64,000 bases of DNA from NCBI RefSeq assembly GCF_016863395.1, contig NZ_BOOU01000044.1, positions 62,001-126,000 on the forward strand, read 5' to 3'. Below the pieces are notes generated by a model that had not been told where the DNA came from, did not search any database, and saw only the letters and a list, made by a program, of their open reading frames with translations. This DNA is from Sphaerisporangium rufum. Its GTDB lineage: Bacteria; Actinomycetota; Actinomycetes; Streptosporangiales; Streptosporangiaceae. The translations under genes were made by a program, and so were the position numbers. Positions 19,262 through 51,217 of the stretch are shown one piece after another (positions within the stretch are counted from its first letter, which is position 1; every line of letters starts with the position of its first letter).

Positions 19262-19552
19262 CAGCGACCTCTCCGGGGGACGGGAACTGCCTGCCCATTT
19301 CTCCCAAAAAAGCCGACATAAACCGGATTCATCCGCAGGGGTCGTCCCGCCGCCACCCCCGACCCCACCCGCCCCCCACCAGGGGCGCACCACCCACCCC
19401 ACCCCCGCCACCCGCACACGCCCGCCCACCCCCACCCGCAGGCACCGCCCGCCGCACCCCGGCACCCCCAGACCCGGCCACTTCTTACGACGTGCGAACG
19501 AAACCACCACCCACCGGCCCCCACCGCCCCCGCCCCGCCTACCCTCACCGGC
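19262..19552. other. C-rich divergent intergenic region
   Basis: 291 bases between gntK and the epimerase, running almost purely C and A on the plus strand between about 19340 and 19540. No gene is supported. TACCCT at 19540, seven bases before the GTG at 19553, is the likely leaderless -10 of the epimerase. The gntK ribosome site lies at the left end. Confidence 0.5.
19540..19545 (+). promoter_or_regulatory. Leaderless -10 box of the epimerase gene
   Basis: TACCCT is followed by exactly seven bases and then the GTG start at 19553. No ribosome site is present, which fits leaderless translation. Confidence 0.45.
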
Positions 19553-20542
19553 GTGAAGATCCTCCTCACCGGCGCCGCCGGCTTCATCGGCCGCCACATC
19601 GCCACCGCGCTCACCGACGCCGGCCACCACGTCACCCCCCTCGACATCCGCACCGGCACCGACGTCCGCGACCCCACCGCCCTCGACCGCCTCCTGCCCG
19701 GCACCGACGCCGTCTGCCACCAGGCCGCCAAGGTCGGCCTCGGCGTCAGCCTGGCCGACCTGCCCGACTACACCTCCACCAACGCCCACGGCACCGCCGT
19801 CCTGCTCGCCGCCATGGCCCGCCACCACACCCCCCGGCTGGTACTGGCCTCATCCATGGTCGTCTACGGCGAAGGCGCCTACACCTGCCCCGACCACGGC
19901 CCCGTCCGCCCCCGCCCCCGCGACCCCGACGACCTCGCCCGCGGCGCCTTCGACCCCCGCTGCCCCCACGGCGACCACCACCTGAACCCCGCCACCATCA
20001 ACGAAGACGCCCCCACCGACCCCCGCAACGCCTACGCCACCACCAAACTCACCCAAGAACACCTCGCCGCCACCTGGGCCCGCGAGACCGGCGGCACCGC
20101 CATCGCCCTGCGCTACCACAACGTCTACGGCCCCCACATGCCCGCCGACACCCCCTACGCCGGCGTCGCCGCCCTGTTCCGCTCCGCCCTGCACGCCGGC
20201 CGCCCACCCCGCGTCTTCGAAGACGGCGCCCAGCGCCGCGACTTCATCCACGTCCGCGACGTCGCCGCCGCCAACCTCGCCGCCCTCACCCGCGGCGGCC
20301 ACCCCGCCACCCTCACCGCCTACAACATCGCCACCGGCCACCCCCACACCGTCGGCGAGATGGCCACCGCCCTGGCCACCGCACACGGCGGACCCCACCC
20401 CATCACCACCGGCGAATACCGCCTCGGCGACGTCCGCCACATCGTCGCCGCACCCGACCGCGCCCGCACCCACCTCGGCTTCACCGCCACCATCCCCTTC
20501 ACCGACGGCATCACCGAGTTCGCCACCGCCCCCCTCGCCTGA
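19553..20542 (+). CDS. NAD-dependent sugar-nucleotide epimerase/dehydratase (extended SDR)
   Basis: GTG 19553; 329 residues. Rossmann motif TGAAGFIG at the N-terminus, then SSMVVYGEGAY, YATTKLTQEHL (Tyr-x-x-x-Lys) and RYHNVYGPHMPADTPYAGVAALF with GAQRRDFIHVRDVAAAN, all typical of UDP-glucose-4-epimerase-like extended SDRs. It probably interconverts an NDP-sugar. It leads a cluster with a polytopic membrane protein, a GT2 enzyme, a DUF2064 protein and a methyltransferase. Substrate unknown. Codons end in C almost throughout, as in the neighbouring cluster genes. Confidence 0.87.
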   Translation: MKILLTGAAGFIGRHIATALTDAGHHVTPLDIRTGTDVRDPTALDRLLPGTDAVCHQAAKVGLGVSLADLPDYTSTNAHGTAVLLAAMARHHTPRLVLASSMVVYGEGAYTCPDHGPVRPRPRDPDDLARGAFDPRCPHGDHHLNPATINEDAPTDPRNAYATTKLTQEHLAATWARETGGTAIALRYHNVYGPHMPADTPYAGVAALFRSALHAGRPPRVFEDGAQRRDFIHVRDVAAANLAALTRGGHPATLTAYNIATGHPHTVGEMATALATAHGGPHPITTGEYRLGDVRHIVAAPDRARTHLGFTATIPFTDGITEFATAPLA

Positions 20543-20653
20543 CAAAGGAACCCCACGGCCGGCCCGCCGCCGGGGCCGCCACCCGCACCGGGGACAAGTG
20601 CACAGGTCGAACCGACCGCCGGCCAGGCCGCAACGGCGGTCCGGCCGGTCGCA

Positions 20654-22258
20654 TCACCACGGCGACACCACCACCCCCTGCACCAGCAACGCCCACCCCA
20701 CCTGAGCCCACCACCACCGCCGCCCCGGCGCCCACCCCGCCGCCACCCCCACCCACACCGCGTACGGCAACCAGATCCGCTCCACCTCGCCCCGCGTCAC
20801 CCCCGCCACATCCAACGCCGCCACCGCCACCAGCACCGCTGCCACCACCACCGCCACCGGCCGCCCCGCCACCCACCCGGCCACGACCTCCCGAACCACC
20901 CCGACCACCCGAACCACCCGAACCACACCGGCACCCCGCCACCGACCGACCGGCCCCGCCGCCCCATCGCCGCCCGCCGCCCCGACCCGGCGAAACAACT
21001 CCGCAAGACCCGCCACCGCACCCGGACCCGCCACCAACCCCAGCACCGCCACGTTCGCCACCACGAAATACCAGTACGGCCGCGCCGCCCCCGGATCCGC
21101 CGCCCACTCCACCCCCGTGGCCGCCACCCCCGCCGGCCACCAAAAACCCGCCACCGCGAACACCCCCACCACCCCGGCCACCCCCGCCACCGCCACGACC
21201 GCCCGCCACCGGCCCACCCCCGCCACCCACCCGGCGGCCACCACCACCAGCAAGAACGGCACCAGCCCATAACTCAGGAACGGCAACACCCCCGCCGCCA
21301 CCCCGCCCGCCGACACCGCCACCCACCCGGCCACCCCGCGCCGCCGCCCCAGCACCACCAACGCCACCGCCCACGCCGCCACCCCCGCGAACAACGCGTC
21401 CATACTCGTCGCCACCCACACCGCCGCCGGCGTCACCACCGCCACCGCCACCACCCGGCGGGCCACCGCCTCCCCGGCCAGCTCCCGCACCACCACCCCG
21501 ACCGCCACCACCGACGAACACCCCACCGCCACCACCAGACACCCCGCCCAGCCCCCACCGGGCAGACCCACCACCGCCAGCACCCACACCACCAGCACCG
21601 GCAGCGGCGGATGCCCCCGCACATGCGTCGGATAACCCGGCAGATCCACCACGAACCCCGAAAGCCACCCCAGCGGATCACCCCCCACCGCCGGCAACAC
21701 CGCCAGATACTCCTCCGGCCGCGCCAGCGGACCCGCCACCCCCGCCACCCCGCCGGCCCCCACCGCCAACGCCACCGCCCACACCACCGCACACCCGTAG
21801 GCCGCCCCCAGCAACACCCCGAACCGCCACCGCGCCGACACCCGCGGCAAAAACCCCACCACCAGCGCCCCCACCACCACCGCCGCCCACAACCCCACCG
21901 GCGGCACCCGCGCATGCCCGTGCAGCGGCGGCAGATGATCGATCCGCAACACCCCCCGCGCATGCAGCACCGCCCCCACCACGGCCACCACCACCAGCAG
22001 CCCGGCCCACCCCGCCACCGCGGCCACCCCCGTCCGGCCGCCCAGACCAGAGGAGCGGCCGGCCCCGGACAAACCCCGGGAGCCGGGGGAGCCGGTCACC
22101 CCCACCCGGCCGGCAGACCCCGGCAGATCAGCGGAACCGCTCACCCCAGCACCCACCCCGGCAGCACCAGCCACCCCGCCACCCGGCCCCGACCACCGCG
22201 CCACCGGCCCACGGCCACCACCGGCACGTCCCGCCACCCGCCCACCATCACCGATCAC
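20654..22258 (-). CDS. Polytopic membrane protein, GT-C-like
   Basis: GTG 22258, supported by TAGCGT six bases upstream (leaderless layout). 534 residues. The first 75 or so are low-complexity Gly/Ser/Arg, then about 11-13 hydrophobic segments. A loop after the second or third segment reads LPGYPTHVRGHPPLPVLV, like the extracytoplasmic loop of polyprenyl-phosphate-dependent GT-C/GT87 glycosyltransferases; a second conserved patch is GEVERIWLPY near the C-terminus. It lies between, and opposite to, the epimerase and the GT2 gene, so a role in lipid-linked sugar transfer is likely but inferred. Confidence 0.75.
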   Translation of the reverse strand: MIGDGGRVAGRAGGGRGPVARWSGPGGGVAGAAGVGAGVSGSADLPGSAGRVGVTGSPGSRGLSGAGRSSGLGGRTGVAAVAGWAGLLVVVAVVGAVLHARGVLRIDHLPPLHGHARVPPVGLWAAVVVGALVVGFLPRVSARWRFGVLLGAAYGCAVVWAVALAVGAGGVAGVAGPLARPEEYLAVLPAVGGDPLGWLSGFVVDLPGYPTHVRGHPPLPVLVVWVLAVVGLPGGGWAGCLVVAVGCSSVVAVGVVVRELAGEAVARRVVAVAVVTPAAVWVATSMDALFAGVAAWAVALVVLGRRRGVAGWVAVSAGGVAAGVLPFLSYGLVPFLLVVVAAGWVAGVGRWRAVVAVAGVAGVVGVFAVAGFWWPAGVAATGVEWAADPGAARPYWYFVVANVAVLGLVAGPGAVAGLAELFRRVGAAGGDGAAGPVGRWRGAGVVRVVRVVGVVREVVAGWVAGRPVAVVVAAVLVAVAALDVAGVTRGEVERIWLPYAVWVGVAAGWAPGRRWWWAQVGWALLVQGVVVSPW

Positions 22259-22347
22259 GCCGTCACGCTAAGGCGCCCCCGCACACCCCCGCACACCCGG
22301 TGAACACACGTCACCACTTCGTAAGAGCCGCCCACCCACCCCCGCAC

Positions 22348-22353
22348 TACCGT
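22348..22353 (+). promoter_or_regulatory. Leaderless -10 box of the GT2 operon
   Basis: TACCGT stands seven bases before the ATG at 22361. No ribosome-binding sequence is present. A GGTGAAC/GTTCACC inverted repeat with arms near 22299 and 22352 brackets the region and could be an operator. Confidence 0.45.
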
Positions 22354-22360
22354 TCACCCC

Positions 22361-23008
22361 ATGAAGATCGACGTCATCCTGCCCTGCCTCAACGAACAAG
22401 ACGCCCTCCCATGGGTCCTGCAACGCATCCCCCCAGGCCACCGCGCCATCGTCGTCGACAACGGCTCCACCGACGACTCCGCCCGCATCGCCGCCGACCA
22501 CGGCGCCCACCTCGTCACCGAACCCCACCGCGGCTTCGGCGCCGCCTGCCACGCCGGCCTCCTCGCCGCCACCGCCGACATCATCTGCTTCATGGACGCC
22601 GACGCCACCCTGGACCCCGGCCAACTCCCACACCTCACCTGGCCCATCGCCACCGGCGCCGCCGACCTCGTCCTCGGCCGCCGCACCCCACCACCCCGCC
22701 CACCCCACGCCCGCCTCGCCAACGCCGCCCTCGCCGCCCACCTGCGCCGCCACACCGGCGCCCCCCTCCACGACCTCGGCCCCATGCGCGCCTGCCGCCG
22801 CACCGCCCTCCTCGACCTCAACCTCACCGACCGCCGCTTCGGCTACCCCCTCGAAATGGTCCTCAAAGCCGCCCGCGCCGGCTGGCGCATCACCGAGACC
22901 CCCGTCCGCCACCTGCCCCGCCGTGGCCGCTCCAAGGTCACCGGCACCGTGCGCGGCACCATGCGCGCCATCGCCGACATGCGCCGCGTCATGACGGAGA
23001 CCGCATGA
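22361..23008 (+). CDS. Family 2 glycosyltransferase, dolichyl/polyprenyl-phosphate sugar synthase type
   Basis: 215 residues. GT-A fold with IDVILPCLNEQDALPWVLQRIP, VVDNGSTDDSARIAADHGA, FMDADATLDP (the DXD metal site) and the late FGYPLEMVLKAARAGWRITETPV block. Short, soluble and without C-terminal membrane helices, like actinobacterial DPM1-like enzymes that charge a polyprenyl phosphate. The stop overlaps the next start by ATGA, so it is coupled to the DUF2064 gene. The divergent membrane protein could use its product. Confidence 0.9.
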   Translation: MKIDVILPCLNEQDALPWVLQRIPPGHRAIVVDNGSTDDSARIAADHGAHLVTEPHRGFGAACHAGLLAATADIICFMDADATLDPGQLPHLTWPIATGAADLVLGRRTPPPRPPHARLANAALAAHLRRHTGAPLHDLGPMRACRRTALLDLNLTDRRFGYPLEMVLKAARAGWRITETPVRHLPRRGRSKVTGTVRGTMRAIADMRRVMTETA

Positions 23009-23724
23009 CCCCCACCCAGATCATCGTCATCGCCAAAGAACCCCTCCCCGGCCGCGTCAAGACCCGCCTCACCCCGCCCTACCTCCCCGCCCAGGCCGCC
23101 CAACTGGCCACCGCCGCCCTCACCGACACCCTCCACACCGTCACCGCCACCCCCGCCGCCCACCGCGTCCTCGCCCTCGACGGACTACCCGGCCCCTGGC
23201 TGCCCCCCGGCATCACCGTCATCGCCCAGCGCGGTCACACCCTCGACCAGCGCCTCGCCGCCGCCTTCACCGACGCCCACCGCCTGCACCCCGCCCCCGC
23301 CGTCCTCATCGGCATGGACACCCCCCAGATCACCCCCCACCTGCTCACCACCGCCACCACCCTGCTCCACGACCACGACGCGGTCTACGGCCCGGCCACC
23401 GACGGCGGCTTCTGGCTCCTCGGCCTGCGCCACCCCGACCCCCGCCTCCTGCTCGGCGTCCCCATGTCCACCCCCACCACCGGCGCCGCGCTGCTCCACC
23501 GCCTCACCGAGGCCGGCCTCACCGCCGCCCACCTCCCCGAACTCACCGACATCGACACCGCCGACGACGCCGCCCACGTCGCCGCACACGCCCCCGGCAC
23601 CCGCTTCGCCGCCGCCCACACCGCCCTCACCTCCACCGGCACCTCCACCGGTCCGGGCACGGGCACCAGCCCCCATGACCGCCCCATCACCCGCCGCCCG
23701 GCCGGCACCCCCACCCCGCGATGA
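23005..23724 (+). CDS. DUF2064 (TIGR04282-type) nucleotidyl/glycosyltransferase-like protein
   Basis: ATG 23005 within the ATGA overlap; 239 residues. GT-A-like fold with IIVIAKEPLPGRVKTRLTPP, VLIGMDTPQI, DAVYGPATDGGFWLLGL and GVPMSTPTTG. Some family members are called arsenosugar biosynthesis glycosyltransferases, but most actinobacterial copies sit, as here, next to a GT2 and a methyltransferase and have no arsenic genes nearby. Coupled to the methyltransferase by another ATGA. Confidence 0.87.
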   Translation: MTPTQIIVIAKEPLPGRVKTRLTPPYLPAQAAQLATAALTDTLHTVTATPAAHRVLALDGLPGPWLPPGITVIAQRGHTLDQRLAAAFTDAHRLHPAPAVLIGMDTPQITPHLLTTATTLLHDHDAVYGPATDGGFWLLGLRHPDPRLLLGVPMSTPTTGAALLHRLTEAGLTAAHLPELTDIDTADDAAHVAAHAPGTRFAAAHTALTSTGTSTGPGTGTSPHDRPITRRPAGTPTPR

Positions 23725-26766: not shown

Positions 26767-26798
26767 GATTGATGCATAATCGCACTTATGCAGCAATC
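26767..26798. other. dif-like recombination site or operator (13-base arms, 6-base spacer)
   Basis: Left arm GATTGATGCATAA, spacer TCGCAC, right arm TTATGCAGCAATC; the arms match at 12 of 13 positions. The pattern ATAA-six bases-TTATG is that of bacterial dif sites, where XerC and XerD each bind one 11-base arm and exchange strands at the edges of a six-base centre. It lies 109 bases upstream of the first of two adjacent tyrosine recombinase genes. A second copy of the left core and centre (GCATAATCACAC) occurs at 26849-26860 without a matching right arm. It could instead be an operator of the recombinase. Confidence 0.5.
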
Positions 26799-26906
26799 AT
26801 CCGGCTCCTTCCCCGGTGTGTCGGCGGGCCAGGCCGCACCGGTTCGCCGCATAATCACACCGAATCGGCGGGTCAAGGGTGCTACGGCACCGGTGCGGAG
26901 GCCGCG

Positions 26907-27929
26907 GTGGACGATCGCGCACCTTTGGTGCTGATGCGCGTGCCACAGGCCGCGTCGGAGTTCCTGTCCGCGCTGCGCGCCAAGAAACTGTCCCCGCACA
27001 CCCTGGCCGGCTACCAGCGCGACCTGCGGCTGGTGGCCGAGCTGGCCGCGGGCCTGGCCGGGGTCCCGCCGCAGGAGCTGCCGGTGCGCGACCTGACCGG
27101 CCGGCTGGTGCGCGGCGCGTTCGCCGAGTTCGCCGGGCCGCGTTCGCCGGCGAGCGTGAACCGGGCGTGGAGCGCCTGGAACCAGTTCCTCACCTTCTGC
27201 GTCGCCGAGCAGATGCTGGAGGGCAACCCGATGGCGGCGGTCCCCCGGCCCAAGCAGCCGGCCAAGGCGCCCAAGCCGCTGCTCGGCGACGGGTCGGCGT
27301 CGGCGACGCTGCTGGAGCGGATCGCCGCCGGCGCGCGGCAGGCGCGCGATCCGTGGGTGGAGCGCGACCTGGTGGTGCTGGCGCTGGCGCTGGTCACCGG
27401 GATGCGGTCGGCGGAGTTGCTGAGCCTGACGGCGGGGGCGATCGGCGGATCGAGTGGTGACCGGCGGATCCAGGTGGTGGGCAAGGGCGGGCGGACGCGG
27501 TCGCTGCCGATCGAGCCGCCGGTGGAGCACCTGGTGGACGCCTATCTGGCCAGCCGGCTGAGCCGGTTCGGCCTGGCCTCCCTCCCCCGGTCGGCGCCGC
27601 TGCTGGTGGACAACCGGGGTGAGCCGCTGCGGCGCGGCGGGCTGCAGTATCTGGTGCGGCAGTGTTACCGGTACGCCGGGGTGCACGACCGGGTGCAGAA
27701 GGGCACGCTGGTGCACGCGCTGCGGCACGAGTTCGCGACCCGGCTGGCCGAGCGGGGCGCCTCGGCGCACGAGTTGATGGAGTTGCTCGGGCACTCCTCG
27801 ATCGTGACGGGGCAGGCGTATGTGGCGTCCACCGCGCGGGAGGTGCGCGCGGCGGCGCGGGCGAACCCGGCGTACGCGGTGCTGGACCGGCTGGGTGCCG
27901 GTGGCGGGGAGCGCGACGCGGAGCGGTGA
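26907..27929 (+). CDS. Tyrosine recombinase, XerC/D type (first of two)
   Basis: GTG 26907 is chosen for GCGGAG six bases upstream; the frame is open further 5' but looks non-coding. 340 residues. An N-terminal core-binding SAM-like domain (FLSALRAKKLSPHTLAGYQRDLRLV) precedes the catalytic domain. The active-site set is complete: Arg about 167 (GMRSAE), Lys about 193 (GKGGRTR), His-x-x-Arg about 270 (HALRHE), His about 295 (LGHSS) and Tyr 305 (QAYVAS). It should be an active integrase/recombinase. It sits just right of a dif-like palindrome and left of a second recombinase. Confidence 0.9.
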   Translation: MDDRAPLVLMRVPQAASEFLSALRAKKLSPHTLAGYQRDLRLVAELAAGLAGVPPQELPVRDLTGRLVRGAFAEFAGPRSPASVNRAWSAWNQFLTFCVAEQMLEGNPMAAVPRPKQPAKAPKPLLGDGSASATLLERIAAGARQARDPWVERDLVVLALALVTGMRSAELLSLTAGAIGGSSGDRRIQVVGKGGRTRSLPIEPPVEHLVDAYLASRLSRFGLASLPRSAPLLVDNRGEPLRRGGLQYLVRQCYRYAGVHDRVQKGTLVHALRHEFATRLAERGASAHELMELLGHSSIVTGQAYVASTAREVRAAARANPAYAVLDRLGAGGGERDAER

Positions 27930-28225
27930 GCGGTGTCGCCGTGCGTATGGCGTGGGATGTGCGCCCTGGAGGGATGTCGTGGGCGCCGGGGTGGTCAGGC
28001 CGGTTGAAAGTGGATGTCACCGGTCGTGACGTGCGCCTCTCCCCCGTCCTGTGGTCGAGCGGGCCGCTCTCCCCTCTCGCGCGGCGGCCGGGTGACCGCC
28101 GCATGCGCGGGCCGGTGGCGGGGGGGCGGGCGGTCCGGGTGGTCGGCGGGCCTGGTGCGCCGTGGATTTGTCGGTGCGGGCCGGTACGGTCGGCGGGTCA
28201 CCGGGTGAAGGGATGGTGCTGGGCG
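27930..28225. other. Spacer between the two recombinase genes
   Basis: 296 bases without a supported gene or clear repeat; it probably carries the promoter of the second recombinase. Confidence 0.4.
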
Positions 28226-29269
28226 ATGCGGCCGGCCGAGCTGACGCGACTGACCGTCGAGGAGTCCACCGACCGTTATGTGGAGTTGGTGGCGGCCAAG
28301 ACGGTGACGGGGGCGTTGTCGGCGTCGACGGCGGAGGTGTACGCGCGGGACGTGGCGACGTTCGCGCGGCTGGCCGGGCCGGGGCGGGTGCTGGACGATT
28401 TGACGGGTGAGGATGTGGACGCGGTGCTGCTGGCGTTCGCCCGTAAGCCGGACGGGCGGCGGGCGGTGCCGGAGGCGGGCGGCGGCGCGGTGCAGAGTCC
28501 GTGGTCGCAGGCGCGGTTCCGCCGGTCGGTGTCGGCGTTCTTCAAGCATGCGGCGCTGGCGGGGTGGGTGCAGGTCGATCCGATGACGGCGTCGACGGTG
28601 ACGGCGCGGGAGCGGGGCGGGTTGCGGGCCGAGCGGCGGGCGTTGACGCGGGAGCAGGCGCGCGGGCTGGTGGGGGCGGCGCGGGCGCTTTCGGAGTCGG
28701 GGCCGCAGGGCGGGCGGCGGGACCAGCGGACCGAGGTGCGGGATGCGTTGATCGTGTTGTTGCTGTCGACGCTGGGGCCGCGGGTGTCGGAGCTGGTGCG
28801 GGCGAATGTGGAGGATTTCTATACCGACGGCGGGGTGCGGTACTGGCGGATCTTCGGTAAGGGCGGGCGGACGCGTGATGTGCCGTTGCCGGTGGATGTG
28901 GCCGAGGTGCTTCAGGTGTACCTGTCGGGTCATCGGCCGGTGACGCAGGAGAAGGCGTTGCTGTTGTCGTGGCGGGGGCGGCGGCTGGCGCGGGGGGATG
29001 TGCAGGCGGTGATCGACCGGGTGCAGCGGCGGGTGGATCCGGCTCAGCGGCGTTCGGTGACGCCGCACGGGTTGCGGCATACCACGGCGACGCATCTGCT
29101 GGCCGACGCGGTGGACATGGACGCGGTGCGGCGGGTGCTGGGGCACAGCGATCTGGCGACGCTGGGGCGTTACCGGGACGAGTTGCCGGGTGAGCTGGAG
29201 GTGGCGATGCGGGTGCATCCGCTGTTGCGCCCGGGTGAGGGTGGCCGCTCCCCCGCCACCGAGGATTGA
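28226..29269 (+). CDS. Tyrosine recombinase, XerC/D type (second of two)
   Basis: ATG 28226 (MRPAELTRL) is the likely start; GTG 28205 is possible. 347 residues. Core-binding domain about 10-130 (SASTAEVYARDVATFARLAG, RRSVSAFFKHAALAGWVQVDPM), then a full catalytic set: Arg about 184 (GPRVSEL), Lys (GKGGRTRDVPL), HGLRH, LGHSD and Tyr 316 (LGRYRDE). It is only distantly like the first recombinase, so this is not a recent duplication. The two could act as a XerC/XerD-like pair on the nearby palindrome; that is inference from position. Confidence 0.9.
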   Translation: MRPAELTRLTVEESTDRYVELVAAKTVTGALSASTAEVYARDVATFARLAGPGRVLDDLTGEDVDAVLLAFARKPDGRRAVPEAGGGAVQSPWSQARFRRSVSAFFKHAALAGWVQVDPMTASTVTARERGGLRAERRALTREQARGLVGAARALSESGPQGGRRDQRTEVRDALIVLLLSTLGPRVSELVRANVEDFYTDGGVRYWRIFGKGGRTRDVPLPVDVAEVLQVYLSGHRPVTQEKALLLSWRGRRLARGDVQAVIDRVQRRVDPAQRRSVTPHGLRHTTATHLLADAVDMDAVRRVLGHSDLATLGRYRDELPGELEVAMRVHPLLRPGEGGRSPATED

Positions 29270-29328
29270 GTCGTCGCAGGTGGTGGTGTGCCGTGGCCGG
29301 CTCGGCGGGGTCGGTGCGGTCGCGGTCG

Positions 29329-29409
29329 GGTGTGGTGCCCGATCACCGTTCAAGCGGATTCAAGGGTCGTGGTCCGGTGTGGTGCCGGACCGTCGTTCAA
29401 GGAGATTCA
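29329..29409. repeat. Two 34-base direct repeats before the DHFR-like gene
   Basis: 29329-29362 and 29376-29409 match at 28 of 34 bases (GGTGTGGTGCC, CGTTCAAG and GATTCA are shared). The second copy contains the ribosome site AAGGAG of the next gene. Either a duplicated leader or a pair of operators. Confidence 0.65.
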
Positions 29410-29410
29410 T

Positions 29411-29947
29411 ATGCGTGATGTCGTGCTTTACCATCTGATGTCGCTGGACGCGGTCGCCTTCGAGGACGACGAGTGGTTCGTCGATGAGGGCCCGCAGCTG
29501 GTGGGTTATCTCGGCCGGGTGATCGGCACGCAGGATGACGTGTTGCTCGGGCGGGGCACCTACGACTATTGGGCCGGGCACTGGCCGAAGTCGGATTTTC
29601 AGCCGTTCGCCGATTTCATCAACGGCACGCCCAAGCACGTCTTCGCCTCCCGGCCGTTCACGCCGGAGTGGGCGAACACCTCGGTGGTGACCGCGCCGGC
29701 CGGTGAGCATGTGGCGGAGCTGAAGCGGCGGCCCGGTGGTGACATCGGGGTGCACGGGAGCATGGAGCTGGCGCGGTCGCTGCTGGCCGATGGGCTGGTG
29801 GACAAGTTGCGGCTGGTCGTGTCGCCGGCCACGGTGGGCCGTGGCCGGCGGGTGTTCGACGGCGGGGCGCTGGGGTCGTGGCGGCTGGAAGAGATGGCGC
29901 GGGCGGCGAACGGGACGCTGTTCCTGGACTATGAGCGGGCGGTCTGA
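29411..29947 (+). CDS. Dihydrofolate-reductase-fold (RibD C-terminal domain) protein
   Basis: ATG 29411 with AAGGAG seven bases upstream. 178 residues. RibD-C/YyaP-type reductase fold: VVLYHLMSLDAVAF, DDVLLGRGTYDYWAGHWP, KHVFASRPF, GDIGVHGSMELARSLLADGLVDKLRLVVSP and VGRGRRVF. The family binds NADPH; its members are mostly of unknown substrate and common in actinomycetes. It has its own leader with a duplicated sequence. Confidence 0.87.
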   Translation: MRDVVLYHLMSLDAVAFEDDEWFVDEGPQLVGYLGRVIGTQDDVLLGRGTYDYWAGHWPKSDFQPFADFINGTPKHVFASRPFTPEWANTSVVTAPAGEHVAELKRRPGGDIGVHGSMELARSLLADGLVDKLRLVVSPATVGRGRRVFDGGALGSWRLEEMARAANGTLFLDYERAV

Positions 29948-50500: not shown

Positions 50501-51180
50501 GCGCCCCGCCCGCCATCCGGGTCGTGATCGTCGACGACCAGCATCTGGTGCGCGCCGGGCTGCGCGCCCTGCTGGACCGGGCCCCGGACATCACGGTCGC
50601 CGGGGACGCCGCCGACGGCGAGGGCGGCCTGGCCATGGTGCGCGCCGAACGGCCCGACGTGGTGCTCATGGACGTGCGGATGCCCGGCATGGACGGTATC
50701 GAGGCGACCCGGCGGATCGTCGCCGACCCGCACCTGCACCAGGTGCAGGTGGTGATGCTCACCACCTTCGACACCGACGAGCACCTGTTCGCCGCCATCC
50801 GCGCGGGGGCGGCCGGGTTCCTGCTCAAGGACACCCGGCCCGACGAGCTGCGCGAGGCGGTGCGCACCGTGGCCTCCGGCGAGGCGCTGCTGTCCCCGGC
50901 GGTGACCCGGCGGGTCATGGACGCCGTCGCCGCCGTGCCGGGCCGGCTCGACCCGGGCCGCGTCGCCGCGCTGACCGACCGCGAGCGCGAGGTCCTCGCC
51001 CAGATCGCCACCGGCCGCTCCAACGCCGAGATCGGCGCCGCGCTCTACATCAGCCCGGCCACCGCGCGCACCTACGTCAGCCGCCTGCTGACCAAGCTCG
51101 ACGCCCGCGACCGCACCCAGCTGGTCGTCATCGCCTACGAAAGCGGCCTGGTCCGCCCCGGCACCTGCCCCGATCCCTAG
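50497..51180 (+). CDS. NarL/FixJ-type response regulator
   Basis: ATG 50497 in the ATGA overlap; 227 residues. Receiver domain with VVIVDDQHLVRAGLRALL, phosphoacceptor Asp near residue 59 in VLMDVRMPGMDG, and LLKDTRPDEL. LuxR-type HTH at 160-220 (LTDREREVLAQIATGRSNAEIGAALYISPATARTYVSRLLTKLDARDR). Its stop codon touches the first TetR operator, so read-through into the TetR gene is possible. Partner of the upstream kinase. Confidence 0.94.
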   Translation: MSAPPAIRVVIVDDQHLVRAGLRALLDRAPDITVAGDAADGEGGLAMVRAERPDVVLMDVRMPGMDGIEATRRIVADPHLHQVQVVMLTTFDTDEHLFAAIRAGAAGFLLKDTRPDELREAVRTVASGEALLSPAVTRRVMDAVAAVPGRLDPGRVAALTDREREVLAQIATGRSNAEIGAALYISPATARTYVSRLLTKLDARDRTQLVVIAYESGLVRPGTCPDP

Positions 51181-51217
51181 TAGACAGTGTCTACGTCCTC
51201 TGGTAGACACTGTCTAT
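51180..51217. promoter_or_regulatory. Two TetR operators, one covering the start codon
   Basis: GTAGACA-G-TGTCTAC (51180-51194) is a perfect 7-base inverted repeat. GTAGACA-C-TGTCTAT (51203-51217) is the same with one change and covers the first two bases of the ATG at 51216. TAGACA at 51204 may also be the -10 of a leaderless message, so bound repressor would block the promoter and start together. Confidence 0.85.

Follow-up and report, generated by a model that had tools for sequence, protein, structure and literature searches.

The 32-base palindrome at positions 26767-26798 (+ strand) of the analysed window, a stretch of 64,000 nucleotides from Sphaerisporangium rufum, is very probably the chromosomal dif of its lineage and not the standard actinobacterial dif. 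It is also highly likely that the tyrosine recombinase encoded next to it (gene 1) is the recombinase of this dif, and that the two have replaced the standard actinobacterial dif and XerC. The elements of this view that were computed from the genomes are the site itself, its position at the terminus, the convergence of a polar motif on it, its co-occurrence with gene 1 and, in the 11 genomes of the genus, the presence of one canonical Xer gene, of the XerD type.

The palindromic site and its constant partner

The site, GATTGATGCATAA-TCGCAC-TTATGCAGCAATC, is composed of two arms (26767-26779 and 26786-26798) flanking an asymmetric 6-base centre (TCGCAC, 26780-26785), with the core GCATAA-N6-TTATGC lying at 26774-26791 (+ strand). 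Its length of 32 bases, the ATAA-6-TTATG geometry and the mirroring of the arms in 12/13 positions are as described in the original prediction. Palindromicity of 12/13 is not rare by itself, being reached by four stretches within the window. The AT-rich core is rare, with GCATAATCGCACTTATGC at up to three mismatches occurring once in the window (0.02 expected) and once in the entire 7.8 Mb assembly, meaning that the site is unique in the genome. Among 249 genomes of the order, the core was found in 99 (91 with one copy, seven with two and one with three), compared to four genomes for a reversed-pattern control; this occurrence, together with the rarity of the core in the window and the assembly, ruled out a chance palindrome. 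A search for further copies returned none elsewhere in the genome of origin and mostly single copies in relatives (91/99). The three core copies are found in G216, which shares with two other genomes of one genus (G210 and G232) the centre TATAAA, located up to 2.3 kb from a gene 1 relative of 67-68% identity.

When 53 sites (43 distinct) were compared, the two arms proved near-identical, not of two kinds, and their outer positions mirrored each other in 142 of 215 cells, against a mean of 122 and a maximum of 139 in 2000 shuffles (kinship ignored). The centre is palindromic in none of the 43 distinct sites, and the site therefore has a direction, as needed for dimer resolution.

Gene 1 (P0001; 26907-27929, + strand, GTG start, 340 aa) begins 108 bases past the site. 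The palindrome is conserved beside orthologous recombinases, a point on which the original prediction depended: the perfect core GCATAA-N6-TTATGC is present in 46 of the 54 named loci encoding a gene 1 relative, with a single mismatch in two more (L059 and L062), and is absent from the examined stretch in six (L050, L078, L082, L086, L093 and L099). Contig coordinates place those of L078 and L082 just outside that stretch. Where the full site precedes gene 1, the distance is 52 to 4,521 bases; in L073 and L080 the site follows the gene. The one-mismatch sites of L059 and L062 (Planobispora), which precede gene 1 by 94 and 70 bases, respectively, are without GGGGGAG convergence and look like a decaying former dif. 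In one locus from Nocardiopsis eucommiae (L102, 6001-6947) gene 1 was matched in two pieces, perhaps owing to a frameshift or a sequencing error.

At a threshold of E up to 1e-40, gene 1 is present in 92 of the 249 genomes of the order, with 88 genomes carrying both site and gene, four gene 1 only (G066, G082, G095 and G107, which are without the exact core), 11 the site only and 146 neither (Fisher p 3e-49, relatedness not corrected). Three of the 11 genomes with the core and no gene 1 at this threshold are drafts of a Nocardiopsis-like genus (g3), and the remaining ones may represent chance occurrences. Distances could be computed in 68 of the 88 co-bearing genomes, the other 20 having no listed coordinates. 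Site and gene 1 are on one contig in 62 of these 68 genomes and within 10 kb of each other in 61 (median 1.8 kb), that is, they are linked. The distance is 306 kb in G008, and six genomes have the two on separate contigs, clearly so in G001 and G004; in G043, G056, G118 and G122 the site is less than 1 kb from a contig start, with gene 1 on another contig. A second palindrome, GCATAA(A/G)TCAGGTTATGC, with nearly the same centre, was observed away from dif in two genomes (G002:C152:77381 and G004:C1:1295336), perhaps carried by a dif-copying mobile element.

The pair of site and gene 1 occurs across Streptosporangiaceae, Nocardiopsaceae and a small number of other actinomycetes. The self-contained recombination module of the original prediction holds in that a site of the dif type has a recombinase gene of its own linked to it; the constant unit is the site plus gene 1, not two recombinases.

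Terminus position and convergence of GGGGGAG

The location of the site was determined in ten chromosomes assembled into one to four contigs; the main contig was treated as circular, and the distance from dnaA was expressed as a fraction of its length. In nine of the ten, which are related and not independent, the site lies at 0.455-0.4995 of the circle (G007 0.4995, G008 0.485, G034 0.472, G124 0.489, G033 0.481, G038 0.455, G053 0.461, G246 0.498 and G059 0.499), the exception being G094 at 0.343. Counted outside this set were G067 (three contigs, 0.438), G076 (dnaA on another contig), and G027 and G215 (site coordinates not listed). A single-copy site near the point opposite the origin is what characterizes a chromosomal dif. 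GC skew was a weak and uninformative terminus marker in G007 and G008, and its change in the window probably stems from the genes.

A second indication comes from the heptamer GGGGGAG, a motif that has already served to locate dif in Corynebacterium (PMC2830990). To the left of the site in the window (1157-25359, first to last occurrence) it appears 14 times on the + strand and once on the - strand, and to the right (27582-59827) 12 times, all on the - strand, so that polarity switches between 25,359 and 27,582. No heptamer is more polar around the site in G007 (22 sampled stretches), and GGGGGAG also ranks first of 6,330 heptamers over 428 kb of G008, with counts of 94:6 and 2:26. The best switch in the latter genome (5,923,072-5,929,334) encloses the site at 5,928,852, and no GGGGGAG switch is seen at the recombinase genes 306 kb away. 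The site of G038, at 2,626,141, likewise falls within its switch (2,625,973 to 2,627,018). Pooled counts over the 52 of 60 stretches that hold exactly one perfect site are 214:6 and 15:295. With best switch intervals covering on average 12.5% of a stretch, the site is inside them in 39 of 42 scorable stretches, the misses being L072, L084 and L100.

Of seven other G-rich heptamers, five show the opposite polarity, GGGGAGG the same but weaker, and GGGGGAC hardly any; the E. coli-type GGGNAGGG, tried as polar motif, gave no clear switch. Six stretches without a perfect site (L050, L059, L062, L078, L082 and L093) contain 5 to 11 motifs each, of which no more than one points against the others, the pattern to be expected with dif outside them; L086 has two motifs and L099 none. 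The architecture-imparting sequences reported for Corynebacterium aurimucosum, G(A/T/C)GGGGGA and (T/C)GGGGGAG (PMC2830990), include the same heptamer converging on dif, but the dif of that species resembles the standard actinobacterial consensus, according to the same source.

Other features of the window were also recorded. Two copies of a 47-base tandem repeat (29318-29409) lie between gene 2, the second recombinase gene described below, and a RibD_C-domain gene (29411-29947). A reading frame of 1410 aa (19492-23724) is full of CCACC-type repeats with strong strand skew and matches only a C-terminal DUF2064, so that it may not be one gene. The inverted repeat GACAGTGTCTAC-N8-GTAGACACTGTC (51183-51214), right after a frame ending at 51180, is perhaps an operator. 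The segment 59001-64000 has a G+C of 0.61-0.64, against 0.68-0.78 in the remainder, and may be acquired DNA; its frames match Pfam regulators (LysR type, winged helix).

Recombinases, the standard Xer system and alternative readings

Gene 1 is accompanied in the window by gene 2 (P0002; 28226-29269, + strand, 347 aa). The two are about 27% identical, and in both R-K-H-R-H-Y is retained at the positions equivalent to the E. coli XerD residues, which bears out the original prediction of two complete, non-duplicate recombinases by the site; the six catalytic residues of gene 1 are invariant in 18/18 aligned sequences. XerC and XerD models match both proteins far below their curated cut-offs, the XerC cut-off being also missed by canonical actinobacterial Xer proteins. 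Scores on the XerS model (60.4 and 49.9 bits, against a cut-off of 267) place neither of them in XerS. The match of gene 1 to the XerH structure 5jjv (E 3.3e-7) is weaker than that to E. coli XerD (1.1e-18), and no XerH model with a cut-off was among the profile-model matches of the two recombinases. The AlphaFold model of gene 1 (mean pLDDT 78.3, pTM 0.57) was recognized in fold searches as a tyrosine recombinase, its closest folds including phage integrases and Xer proteins with no decision between Xer kinds.

A tree of 41 rows resolved four separate clades, corresponding to gene 1 (11 rows, 100/99), gene 2 (7, 100/100), XerD-type (10, 100/99, including five of the genus proteins) and XerC-type (8, 100/99) sequences. 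Gene 1 groups with neither of the last two. E. coli XerC and XerD were weakly placed, and the type names therefore rest on similarity and on the synteny of xerD, the XerD-type gene of the window's genome adjoining a gene that we take to be parA. Each of the 11 genus genomes has one canonical Xer gene (248-284 bits, next best in any 176), whose products resemble one another and the XerD-type actinobacterial proteins much more closely than they do the XerC-type ones. No XerC-type gene was found in these 11 genomes, so that none of them showed both types, nor in G015. The comparison with canonical Xer genes suggested along with the original prediction leaves the genus with one XerD-type gene and gene 1 in a clade apart. 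Among 40 genomes of the class, 31 show at least two canonical Xer genes at E 1e-60, six show one and three show none; G013, a member of the same family without the new site, has two, and the site-bearing G000 and G015 have one each.

Two genomes of the same family, G026 and G061, are without gene 1 and without the new site. Their GGGGGAG switch points (6,775,133-6,778,549 and 3,288,475-3,289,366, respectively) carry TTGCTCGATAATGAACATTATGTCAAGT and ATGGTCGATAATGTACATTATGTCAAGT, each one mismatch from the standard dif core. The best match to the standard actinobacterial dif has 7 of 20 set positions mismatched in the window and 6 of 20 in the 428 kb around the G008 terminus; the competing standard dif that would have spoken against the original prediction was thus found in neither stretch. 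A dif has been reported for 66/66 actinobacteria, that suggested for Frankia alni being CACGCCGATAATGCACATTATGTCAAGT (PMC3025954), and the list in this source may include some of the new sites.

These data bear on which proteins act at the site. It is conceivable, though unlikely, that gene 1 replaced XerC only and partners the retained XerD-type recombinase on the new site. The XerD-type gene kept in 11/11 genus genomes without any XerC-type found, as well as the FtsK gamma domain present in 6/6 genomes tested, would fit such a pairing, but the standard right arm is TTATGTCAAGT in G026 and G061 while both new arms are TTATGCATCAA or close to it, and the XerD-type genes may serve another role. 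The gamma domain, moreover, only permits control by FtsK. The FtsK-gamma contact residues of E. coli XerD (Table 1 of PMC5052618) are absent from gene 1 and likewise from actinobacterial XerD-type proteins, so their absence in gene 1 says nothing.

A heterotetramer of the gene 1 and gene 2 proteins, one on each arm in the manner of XerC/XerD, is a comparably doubtful version of the same explanation. Gene 2, which keeps all its catalytic residues just as gene 1 does, is found in 11/11 genus genomes and in 12 of the 54 named loci, about 6 kb or less from gene 1. It follows gene 1 in six of these loci (Sphaerisporangium) and is divergent, with the site between the genes, in the other six (Streptosporangium, Thermocatellispora and a MAG); the tree also groups their clades together (95/87), with a caution about long branches. 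Against this, gene 2 is missing from the examined stretch (up to 6 kb a side, some shorter) in 42 of the 54 named loci, where site and gene 1 stay, and from 60 kb around the dif of G038; in the genome of L053 it lies 10 kb off. Gene 2 is therefore no constant neighbour of the site, being near dif in part of the family, and the arms are alike, not of two kinds. A third tyrosine recombinase (L186, 9148-10161, - strand, 337 aa) is encoded in the window's genome, with orthologues 78-87% identical in the other ten genus genomes (L165, L167, L170, L172, L174, L177, L179, L181, L182 and L185), and lies on the dif contig in nine of the 11, about 18-137 kb away.

The original prediction had favoured a module for plasmid or element resolution, excision or inversion over the chromosomal dif, a reading taken here to cover resolution or integration by plasmids, phages and other mobile elements. 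Recombinase clades apart from XerC and XerD, and closest folds that include phage integrases, could be taken in its favour, and a mobile element may have been the evolutionary origin of the system. As an account of its present role, this reading is very improbable: the site is mostly single-copy and conserved across families, it holds a constant position near the point opposite dnaA in 9/10 chromosomes, GGGGGAG converges on it, and six of the ten frames around it match Pfam families, none of phage, plasmid or transposon type (the four unmatched may not be genes).

A last alternative concerns the promoter of gene 1, upstream of which the window has a lone half-site, GCATAAT (26849-26855, + strand), a possible operator or -10 element, besides the full site. 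In a set of 57 loci (the 54 named ones less L099, plus the window, G004, G007 and G008), 13 have a lone GCATAAT no more than 160 bases upstream of gene 1, these being related loci with kinship ignored, against a chance expectation of 0.00 (GCATAAT) to 0.11 (GCATAA). It persists in L050, G004 and G008, where dif sits elsewhere. Judging from the sequence, the half-site could allow the gene 1 protein to bind at the promoter of its own gene, or be a -10 element left over from an earlier dif. The full site, too, is at most 160 bases ahead of gene 1 in 13 of the 57 loci, which would suit a palindrome that is a mere operator or promoter of the recombinase gene. This reading is barely credible: the full site is as far as 4,521 bases away or downstream in other loci, and in G008 it stands 306 kb from the genes at the convergence of GGGGGAG, a terminus location that an operator role does not explain.

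A proposed lineage-specific pathway for dimer resolution

In the proposed model for the chromosomal dif and gene 1, crossing-over would fuse sister chromosomes into a dimer, whose two dif copies would be brought together at the septum, with GGGGGAG orienting DNA translocation towards dif, probably through FtsK. The gene 1 protein would then bind the near-identical arms and exchange strands across the asymmetric 6-base centre, yielding two monomers. Binding, strand exchange, FtsK dependence and autoregulation through the half-site are the steps that we infer. The near-identical arms agree with one recombinase being sufficient, with gene 2 and XerD as other possible participants; given that the XerD-type gene has been kept, gene 1 may need a partner.

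This arrangement shares with XerC/XerD-dif the 11+6+11 geometry, the terminus position, the convergence of a polar motif and the R-K-H-R-H-Y tyrosine recombinases. It differs in having other arms, nearly alike on both sides, in that no XerC-type gene was found in the genus, and in a recombinase of another clade encoded no more than 10 kb from the site in 61 of the 68 genomes with both coordinates. Lineage-specific chromosomal dif sites with a divergent recombinase are also described for XerS/difSL and XerH/difH, where the gene is beside the site (PMC5357621), and for XerL/dif of Legionellales (PMC9765430). Unlike these systems, a canonical XerD-type gene is still present here and a second recombinase is linked in some genera; in addition, the difSL centre is given as 11 bases (PMC5357621) versus 6 here, and gene 1 reaches 60 bits with the XerS model, far from its cut-off. 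In these sources, few replacements of XerCD/dif are described (PMC5357621, PMC9765430). The matches listed in a literature search included no description of a non-standard dif/Xer system from these organisms.

In a stronger form, to which somewhat less than even chances are given, dimer resolution would have been swapped whole within one actinomycete family, with a new palindromic dif and a recombinase acting alone, and controlling itself via the half-site, displacing the standard dif and XerC but leaving FtsK and the polar GGGGGAG code in place. Systems for dimer resolution occur very widely among bacteria whose chromosomes are circular. The site marks the terminus in actinomycetes where GC skew fails, and the old and new systems coexist in one family with the same polar motif, making the exchange of site, recombinase and FtsK guidance testable. 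If such a swap did take place, genera with the old and the new system would represent the states before and after it.
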